Source: Futiania mangrovi (GTDB lineage: Bacteria > Pseudomonadota > Alphaproteobacteria > Futianiales > Futianiaceae). Taken from it: a stretch of DNA of 64,000 bases. The DNA is taken from the NCBI RefSeq assembly GCF_024158125.1, contig NZ_JAMZFT010000001.1, forward strand, positions 434,001-498,000, given 5' to 3'. Below the pieces are notes generated by a model. It did no database searches, had not been told where the DNA came from, and saw only the letters and a list, made by a program, of their open reading frames with translations. The first letter of the stretch is position 1; each line of letters opens with the position of its first letter. The position numbers were made by a program, and so were the translations under genes. Below are positions 16,027-18,466 of the stretch, one piece after another.

Positions 16027-17040
16027 ATGAGCGTGACCAGCTTCGCAGGCGAGCCGTTCGCCAGCATCCTCAACAAGGGCTTCGTGGACGAGCAGGACGT
16101 GCTCGACATGCGCCGTGCCGTCTGGAAGGACGGCGCGGTCTCCATCGACGAGGCGGAGGGGCTGTTCGCCGTCGACGAGGCCTGCCCGGAGCGGCACGAG
16201 ACCTGGGCGCCCATGTTCGTCGAGGCCGTCGTCGAGCTTCTGGTGAACCAGCTTCCGCCGCGCGGCTACCTTGGCGAGGAGAACGCCCGCTGGCTGATGG
16301 AGCGGATCGAGCAGGACGGTCACGTCAAGACCGCGACGGAGCTGGAGGTGCTGGTGCGCTGCCTCGAAGCCTCCCGCGCGGCGCCGCGTCCGCTCGCCAT
16401 GTTCGCGCTGGGCGAGGTGGAGCATGCCGTGCTCCACGGCACCGGGCTGACCCGCGCGGGCGAGGCCCTGACCCCCGGCGTGATCGGCGAACCTGAAGTG
16501 AAGCTCTTGCGCCGCGTACTCTACGCCGCGGGCGGCGACGGAAACATCGCGATCACGAAGCCGGAGGCGGAGGTGCTCTTCAACCTCAACGACGCGACCG
16601 CGCACGCAGAGAACCATCCGTCATGGTCCGACCTCTTCGTCAAGGCGATCGCCAACTACCTGATGTTCGTCTCGCACTATGAGCCCGTGAGCCGCGCGGA
16701 CGCCCTGCGCCGCGACCGCTGGCTGACCGATGGCGAGGGAATCGACTGGAGCTCCTGGAGTGTCGGCGGCGTACTGCGCGAGTTGCGCGGGCTCATGGGC
16801 GTGGGCGATTTCTTCGGCTCGAGCGATCTCCAGAAGCGCTGGGAGGAAAAGAACCGGGAGGTCGCCGCCCAGACCGCCGAGGCCGAGAAGATCACCGCCG
16901 ACGAGGCCGCCTGGCTCGCAGACCGGATCGGCCGCGACGGGAGGTTGCACCCGAACGAGCAGGCGCTGCTCGCATTCCTCCGGGAAGAGGCGGTGAACCT
17001 GCCGCCCGTGCTCCAACCGCTCCTGCGCCGGGTGGCCTGA
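16027..17040 (+). CDS. Internally duplicated helical protein with four TerB-like DG motifs
   Basis: I do not recognise a named family for the whole protein (337 residues, no signal or membrane segment). It is built from two similar halves. Half one (about 18-130) has KDGAVSIDEAEGLF at 34-47, HETWAPMFVEAV at 57-68, and NARWLMERIEQDGHV at 86-100. Half two (about 155-337) has GDGNIAITKPEAEVLF at 170-185, HPSWSDLFVKAI at 197-208, and AAWLADRIGRDGRL at 294-307. Each DG followed by a helix with conserved Glu/Leu resembles TerB-type helical modules. An inserted segment (about 214-288) separates the last two motifs. It precedes three AroQ-like genes on the same strand. Confidence 0.75.
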   Translation: MSVTSFAGEPFASILNKGFVDEQDVLDMRRAVWKDGAVSIDEAEGLFAVDEACPERHETWAPMFVEAVVELLVNQLPPRGYLGEENARWLMERIEQDGHVKTATELEVLVRCLEASRAAPRPLAMFALGEVEHAVLHGTGLTRAGEALTPGVIGEPEVKLLRRVLYAAGGDGNIAITKPEAEVLFNLNDATAHAENHPSWSDLFVKAIANYLMFVSHYEPVSRADALRRDRWLTDGEGIDWSSWSVGGVLRELRGLMGVGDFFGSSDLQKRWEEKNREVAAQTAEAEKITADEAAWLADRIGRDGRLHPNEQALLAFLREEAVNLPPVLQPLLRRVA

Positions 17041-17123
17041 AGCCGCGTCAGGAAATATGGCAGTAGTGCTGCCATTAAATCTTTGTTACACTTCGCATCC
17101 GTGAACCAGACGGATGCGGATCC

Positions 17124-17579
17124 ATGCACGATCCTGAGCTGCTGAAGTTACGCCTGTTGCGCCTCGACGAGAAGATCGTCGAGTTGCTGGCGGAGCGTCT
17201 GGCGGCTGCGCGATGGCTGCTTGAGGCCGAAAGCAGTGGCGAGCATCGCGAAAGCCTGGATCCCTCGACGATCTCGGTTCTCCTCGCGGAACGCGCCCGC
17301 GAACATGGGTTGGACCCGCTGATCCTGCGCTCGGTATATGACGCGCTCCTCTCCCCCATTGGGGGCGGGCATCTGGACGACGGCGCTCCGCCGCAGCCGC
17401 CGCCCGTGGAAGACGAGGCCGTGCCGCAGGCCGGCGCAGCGACGCTGCCGCCTGTCCAGGGAACGCCCTGTGCGCCGGCCGAGCGGCCGCTGACAGATCT
17501 GCTGCCATCCGCACATGAAGCAAATCGGGACAGTCGCGATGGGCCGGATAGCCTTATGGATCGCATGAATTTTCTTTAG
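17124..17579 (+). CDS. Degenerate AroQ-fold (chorismate mutase-like) protein with Pro-rich tail
   Basis: First of three neighbouring AroQ-like genes (151 residues). Residues 6-77 align without gaps to E. coli chorismate mutase at an offset of three. R25 matches catalytic R28, but K8 replaces R11, E36 replaces K39, S48 replaces R51 and T49 replaces E52, so mutase activity is unlikely. Residues 78-151 are a Pro/Ala-rich tail not found in the other two. It shares LLAERLAAARWL with LLAERFAVARWL of the next gene, which suggests duplication. Function unknown; a regulatory or binding role is only inference. Confidence 0.65.
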   Translation: MHDPELLKLRLLRLDEKIVELLAERLAAARWLLEAESSGEHRESLDPSTISVLLAERAREHGLDPLILRSVYDALLSPIGGGHLDDGAPPQPPPVEDEAVPQAGAATLPPVQGTPCAPAERPLTDLLPSAHEANRDSRDGPDSLMDRMNFL

Positions 17580-17735
17580 CTTACGGCTCGCTGGCGGAAA
17601 ACAACGCGAATTTACCGTAAAACTAAGTGTTGTCCGAAACTTGAGGGCTTGTCGTGTTGGTTGTATTGTCTCTGCATGGTACGGGTGGCATGGCTCGCTG
17701 CCTGTTCTCGTAGTGATTTCAATGGGGCATATCTC

Positions 17736-18044
17736 GTGAGAGAAATCCAACTGTTGCAGCAGAAGCTGGACAGAATCGACGATCAGTTGGTCGATTTGCT
17801 GGCAGAGCGGTTCGCGGTGGCGCGCTGGCTGGGGGAAACAAAGGCCGTCTATGGCCTGCCCGCCGTATCGCCGGAGCGCCGTGGACATGAGGTAACGCGG
17901 GCGGAGTACCGCGCGATCGAACGGGGCATCCCCCAGGGGCTTGTACGTGCGCTCCTGGGACAGGTGGTGGATGCGACGGCGCAGACCGTTGGCGTCCCGG
18001 ACGATCTGGACGATGAACCGGTCGCGCTGGCGGTCGGGCACTAG
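17736..18044 (+). CDS. AroQ-fold chorismate mutase-like protein
   Basis: Second of the three AroQ-like genes. The GTG start at 17736 gives 102 residues and places the domain in the same register as its neighbours; the upstream in-frame ATGs at 17649 and 17676 add a Cys/Trp-rich stretch that looks non-coding. Against E. coli chorismate mutase, R25 (R28), K36 (K39) and R48 (R51) are kept, while Q8 replaces R11, S45 replaces D48 and R49 replaces E52. IDDQLVDLLAERFAVARWLGETK is the AroQ helix-1 signature region. Activity is uncertain. The 156 bases before it are relatively AT-rich. Confidence 0.7.
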   Translation: MREIQLLQQKLDRIDDQLVDLLAERFAVARWLGETKAVYGLPAVSPERRGHEVTRAEYRAIERGIPQGLVRALLGQVVDATAQTVGVPDDLDDEPVALAVGH

Positions 18045-18148
18045 GGGGAAGCGCCTGGATTCGCAGGTGTATCGGTGCGGCACCCTCTGCGGGGGTAGGG
18101 CTGCCAGGGATCGAAGCGGACGGTGAGACAGGGCGAGGGGAGCCACCG

Positions 18149-18466
18149 ATGGAGGAGTTGAAGGATCTGCGCGCGCGGATCGATTCGATCGACACCCGCA
18201 TCATGGATCTGTTGCAGGAGCGGTTCGCGACCGTCCGTGAGGTCATCGTGGTCAAGGACGGGGCGGGGATCCCCGTGCGCATCCCGGCCCGGATCGACGA
18301 GGTGATCGACCGGGCGGAGCGTCTGGCGCAGGACCGCGGCCTGCCTCCGGGACTCGGCCGCGCCCTTTACGAGCACATCGTGGAGGCCACCTGCCTGTTC
18401 GAGGAAACGCGCCTTGGCGAGGACACGCCCGAAAACCGGCGTTTCGCTGTCGCAGGCCGGGCCTGA
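18149..18466 (+). CDS. AroQ-fold chorismate mutase-like protein, best-preserved copy
   Basis: Third AroQ-like gene, 105 residues, close to the normal AroQ length. LRARIDSIDTRIMDLLQERF opens the long first helix. R8, R25, K36 and R48 match E. coli R11, R28, K39 and R51, and E85 stands at the Q88 position, as glutamate does in yeast chorismate mutase. I45 and I49 replace D48 and E52, which is unusual for a classic mutase and recalls isochorismate pyruvate-lyase (PchB) divergence. A GAGGGGAG element precedes the ATG. Chorismate mutase or a related pericyclic activity is possible. Confidence 0.75.
   Translation: MEELKDLRARIDSIDTRIMDLLQERFATVREVIVVKDGAGIPVRIPARIDEVIDRAERLAQDRGLPPGLGRALYEHIVEATCLFEETRLGEDTPENRRFAVAGRA

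Follow-up and report, generated by a model that had tools for sequence, protein, structure and literature searches.

A probably lineage-specific tandem of three AroQ-fold genes in Futiania mangrovi: a candidate auxiliary chorismate mutase and two probably non-catalytic paralogues

The window (the whole 64,000-nucleotide stretch of Futiania mangrovi DNA that was analysed) contains three neighbouring genes, designated genes 1, 2 and 3 (Table 1), that are real and homologous. On balance, the trio is best read as a lineage-specific tandem consisting of an auxiliary chorismate-acting enzyme (gene 3) and two non-catalytic paralogues (genes 1 and 2), all derived from one AroQ gene of the TIGR01803 type. 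The three small open reading frames lie on one strand, as given in the preliminary description of this DNA.

Table 1. Positions of the three genes and of the upstream palindrome in the window.
Feature	Position	Strand	Description
Gene 1	17124..17579	+	AroQ-fold protein, 151 aa
Gene 2	17736..18044	+	CM_2 protein, 102 aa, GTG start
Gene 3	18149..18466	+	Chorismate mutase-like (TIGR01803-type) protein, 105 aa
Perfect 9-bp palindrome, CGCATCCGT-N7-ACGGATGCG	17094..17118		5 bases before gene 1 ATG

GC3 of genes 1 and 2 is 0.72-0.77, a coding-like pattern. An alternative in-frame start of gene 2 is possible at TTG 17649. A secreted form of gene 2 starting upstream in frame was rejected, the extension to this TTG having a GC3 of 0.52, unlike local coding DNA. 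An antisense open reading frame (17148-18146, 332 aa) was rejected as a true gene, with no Pfam or NCBIfam match.

The three proteins were searched against Pfam CM_2 (PF01817, gathering cut-off 27 bits). Gene 3 (69.7 bits, E = 2.6e-19) and gene 2 (45.4 bits, E = 1e-11) score above the cut-off, whereas gene 1 is matched only below it (18.7 bits, E = 0.002). A profile failure of both genes 1 and 2, named in the preliminary description as the result to be set against AroQ membership, was not seen: gene 2 is well above the cut-off, and gene 1 gives a match below it. Identity is 42% over 81 aa between genes 2 and 3 and 33% between genes 1 and 2. Shuffle z-scores are 22.9 (genes 2 and 3), 14.8 (genes 1 and 2) and 7.8 (genes 1 and 3), with none of 2000 shuffles scoring equally high. 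Against E. coli chorismate mutase alone the alignment of gene 1 is weak (z = 3.0, 23 of 2000 shuffles equally high), so its family membership rests on the match to gene 2, the sub-cut-off CM_2 match and structure.

The structure of gene 1 was predicted using 22 aligned sequences. The model contains helices at residues 4-37, 47-60 and 65-80 (pLDDT ~90), consistent with the three-helix AroQ fold. The chorismate mutase domain (approximately residues 4-80) is followed by a Pro/acid-rich tail (pLDDT ~60) that is probably disordered. In Foldseek the best matches of the model were E. coli chorismate mutase and PchB, with entries 5vht (probability 0.97) and 2h9c at weak E-values of 0.5-0.6.

A 61-row tree grouped genes 1 and 2 with support of 96/91. 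Support for all three genes together (85/64) is not decisive, and a tree in which gene 3 joins its outside relatives while genes 1 and 2 stand separately was not rejected (p-AU 0.48). The end branch of gene 1 is the longest in the tree, at 2.68 changes per column. The profile, shuffle and structural results and the tree support an origin of the three as AroQ-fold paralogues by duplication, which had been suggested earlier for genes 1 and 2, and the trio is most simply explained by duplication in place. The LLAER helix, previously described as near-identical in genes 1 and 2, is for half of its length (LLAERx) family consensus.

No second convincing chorismate mutase gene was found nearby in other loci bearing such a gene, within the stretches examined, and no adjacent stand-alone pair was present among the matches listed for 385 genomes of the class and 398 genomes of the phylum, lists from which weak copies could be missing. 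The order is represented in the genome sample by this genome alone. Its own genome aside, gene 1 had one relative in the 385 genomes, a gene 3-type protein of G159. In a separate reading of sequence from G159 (L086, 5757-10404), a gene 3-type chorismate mutase-like gene lies amid genes whose sequences resemble those of a GMC oxidoreductase, an isochorismatase-fold hydrolase and an acyl/aryl-AMP ligase. Relatives of gene 2 were sought in viral contigs, with none confirmed, and in plasmids, which yielded mainly chorismate mutase domains of other kinds (e.g. tyrA). A scan of genome contigs returned only two distant chorismate mutases, from Bacillota and Spirochaetota.

In E. coli chorismate mutase, the role of Asp48 is to position the partner subunit's Arg11, and that of Glu52 is to contact the 4-hydroxyl of chorismate; PchB has Ala51 and Val55 at the D48 and E52 positions, and weak chorismate mutase activity remains (PMC12329711). 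Residues 8, 25, 36, 45, 48, 49 and 85 of genes 2 and 3 correspond to E. coli residues 11, 28, 39, 48, 51, 52 and 88 (offset 3). The ungapped alignment at one common offset that had been reported for all three genes is indeed the best for gene 3 (24 identities) and gene 2 (17), but gene 1 has 14 identities at offset 3 and 17 at its best offset, which is a different one. Gene 3 carries R8, R25, K36, R48 and E85 (R11, R28, K39, R51 and E88 in E. coli numbering), with aliphatic I45 and I49 at the D48 and E52 positions. Gene 2 retains R25, K36 and R48, with Q8 and V85 replacing R11 and Q88. Gene 1 retains R25 only, with K8 and E36 at the R11 and K39 positions, and lacks R51. The alignment thus bears out the residues first assigned to each gene: four basic residues and a Glu at Q88 in gene 3, three of the four in gene 2, and R25 alone in gene 1. 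The further statement that all three have lost D48 and E52 stands for genes 2 and 3, but in gene 1 the D48 column depends on gap placement. The set expected of an active AroQ enzyme (R11, R28, K39, R51, and Q or E at 88) is found in gene 3 only, and these residues support its earlier reading as the probable active chain. The E52 contact is missing from gene 3 (I49), as it is from its whole clade.

This clade consists of stand-alone chorismate mutase-like proteins. The pattern R-R-K-aliphatic-R-(I/V)-E was found in eight proteins (L034, L049, L046, L040, L063, L064, L050 and L042) from other alphaproteobacterial families, mostly of ~95-115 residues, and in six more members of the class (L006, L134, L135, L137, L140 and L143). 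Because the stand-alone clade has the identical pattern, the D48/E52 replacement in gene 3 is read as no loss, and gene 3, judged by its residues, appears undegraded, having lost nothing. The stepwise loss described earlier for the trio therefore applies to genes 2 and 1, where the losses are real, but not to gene 3.

The best NCBIfam match of gene 3 is TIGR01803 ('chorismate mutase family protein', cut-off 73.35 bits). Gene 3 scores 58.8, gene 2 36.1 and gene 1 20.0 bits, all below the cut-off; L034 and L049, the closest relatives of gene 3, pass it. Gene 3 is like TIGR01803 members in length and in the residue pattern of L034 and L049, but falls short of the cut-off; genes 1 and 2, in which catalytic residues are missing, have much lower scores. 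No tandem triplication was seen in other members. Gene 3 shares with E. coli chorismate mutase (AroQ alpha, the N-terminus of PheA) the fold and R11, R28, K39 and R51, and differs from it in having Ile for D48 and E52 and Glu for Q88 (28% identity over 83 aa).

The contexts of nine clade genes, with neighbours read from sequence, vary by genome: a clade gene adjoins rpoD and dnaG in the family of G077 and G364, and unrelated genes are found elsewhere. G077 (98% complete) has L042, its member of the clade, as the sole convincing CM_2 match (others have E above 0.2); prephenate dehydratase is present and an AroH-type chorismate mutase is absent; L042 therefore probably supplies prephenate in this organism. 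This suggests that clade proteins may function as chorismate mutases even without E52. Such gene content makes chorismate mutase the likeliest activity of the clade, although at 98% completeness an ordinary chorismate mutase could be missing from the assembly.

The genome of the window (G000) encodes one Chorismate_bind (PF00425) protein, L085, which is TrpE-like and 507 aa long. No isochorismate synthase or aminodeoxychorismate synthase was found in the genome by PF00425 search. Since the lone Chorismate_bind protein is TrpE-like, known enzymes would not be expected to make isochorismate or aminodeoxychorismate here, which leaves chorismate as the likely substrate. No separate PabB (for the folate precursor PABA) was found either, the single PF00425 protein being that of a nearly complete genome.

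These data bear on the proposal that the trio encodes a PchB-like isochorismate pyruvate lyase or a PapB-like aminodeoxychorismate mutase with accessory subunits. PchB of Pseudomonas aeruginosa has the fold and four basic residues in common with gene 3, and gene 3 is without D48 and E52, as is PchB, where the replacements are likewise aliphatic (PMC12329711). TIGR01803 as the best NCBIfam match of gene 3, and PchB structures among the best fold matches of gene 1, are also in its favour. The substrate evidence is against it, as are the unrelated neighbouring genes and a score of 33.4 bits for gene 3 against the isochorismate lyase model PRK07075, far below the cut-off of 126. Such an enzyme is highly improbable here, and the PchB-like lyase raised in the preliminary description is disfavoured given the TrpE-like nature of the one Chorismate_bind enzyme.

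A second chorismate mutase of the genome, L001 (306 aa, PRK06034/TIGR01807-type), passes TIGR01807 and is encoded beside a metX-like acyltransferase gene; it is probably the housekeeping enzyme. L001 has the AroQ domain in common with the trio, but differs in its C-terminal extension, in retaining E52 and Q88 and in occupying a separate branch of the tree. Prephenate dehydratase is also present, and because the genome holds it together with the ordinary chorismate mutase L001, gene 3 is probably an extra enzyme.

Upstream of the trio are genes for a YbjQ-type protein and for a protein of 337 aa that has no Pfam match; downstream are those for a carboxylase alpha subunit and an MgtC/DUF4010 membrane protein. 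None of the genes seen nearby belongs to an aromatic pathway. By eye, the 337 aa protein (16027-17040) seems to have internal repeats of a DEAE-x-LF / W-x-x-LFV pattern. The palindrome before gene 1 (Table 1) is a possible operator or 5' hairpin. It was rejected as a regulon site because the genome contains no other perfect copy; five other palindrome-like sites have 3 mismatches each, which is about background.

AroQ enzymes are intertwined dimers in which each site is built from two chains, with R11 acting in trans, and paralogues can pair (PMC12329711). One alternative, a form of which was offered in the preliminary description, is that the trio encodes a chorismate mutase of mixed chains, a hetero-oligomer with gene 3 as the catalytic chain and genes 1 and 2 as dedicated regulatory pseudo-subunits, inhibitory or activating. 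It is in keeping with the adjacency of the genes on one strand and their retained fold, and with MtCM, an AroQ enzyme that can depend on a partner, DAHP synthase (PMC4281200). We consider it quite unlikely: the trans-acting R11 is replaced by Q in gene 2 and by K in gene 1, the intergenic distances (156 and 104 bp) speak against tight translational coupling, and no conserved pairing was found in other genomes among the matches listed. In a gene 3:gene 2 dimer, site A would have E88 and no R11', and site B would have R11' but V in place of E88, so that neither would be complete. Since R11 acts in trans, mixed dimers would probably be weaker, not stronger. A role for genes 1 and 2 as dedicated pseudoenzyme partners, tuning gene 3 through mixed dimers in which the trans R11 site is broken, is likewise quite unlikely.

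According to the favoured reading, a tandem of an auxiliary enzyme and two non-catalytic paralogues, one stand-alone chorismate mutase-like gene would have been duplicated to give a lineage-specific array. In gene 3 the ancestral active site would be preserved; its product most likely forms a homodimer with chorismate as substrate, adding to the ordinary chorismate mutase a second one that is probably slow. Gene 2, then gene 1, would be duplicates that kept the fold and lost the chemistry: gene 2 through absence of the trans-acting R11 and the Q88/E88 residue, and gene 1 through absence of K39 and R51 as well. Both are most likely non-catalytic, and may be either drifting or kept as modulators. 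If either pairs with gene 3, each mixed site would lack R11' or E88 and activity would be lowered.

It is unlikely, though less so than the alternatives above, that genes 1 and 2 are no more than duplicates in decay, without an important product. The long branches, that of gene 1 above all, the lost catalytic residues, a GC3 lower than that of neighbouring genes and the lack of outside orthologues of genes 1 and 2 would fit decay. The frames are nevertheless intact, the helices of gene 1 are well predicted, and gene 2 remains close to gene 3 across the domain. Intact frames, coding-like GC3 and a retained fold in genes 1 and 2 also weigh on the favoured reading, in that pure drift would not long preserve them.

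Chorismate mutase is a classic model enzyme. No native AroQ paralogue is known to us to serve as a pseudo-subunit, and none was found in a limited literature search. As a naturally occurring tandem in which the pocket is lost by degrees, the trio could be used to test directly whether inactive paralogues have a regulatory role or are only decaying. The stand-alone clade is the broader point: its members may be a naturally used E52-less chorismate mutase, between PchB and the ordinary enzymes.
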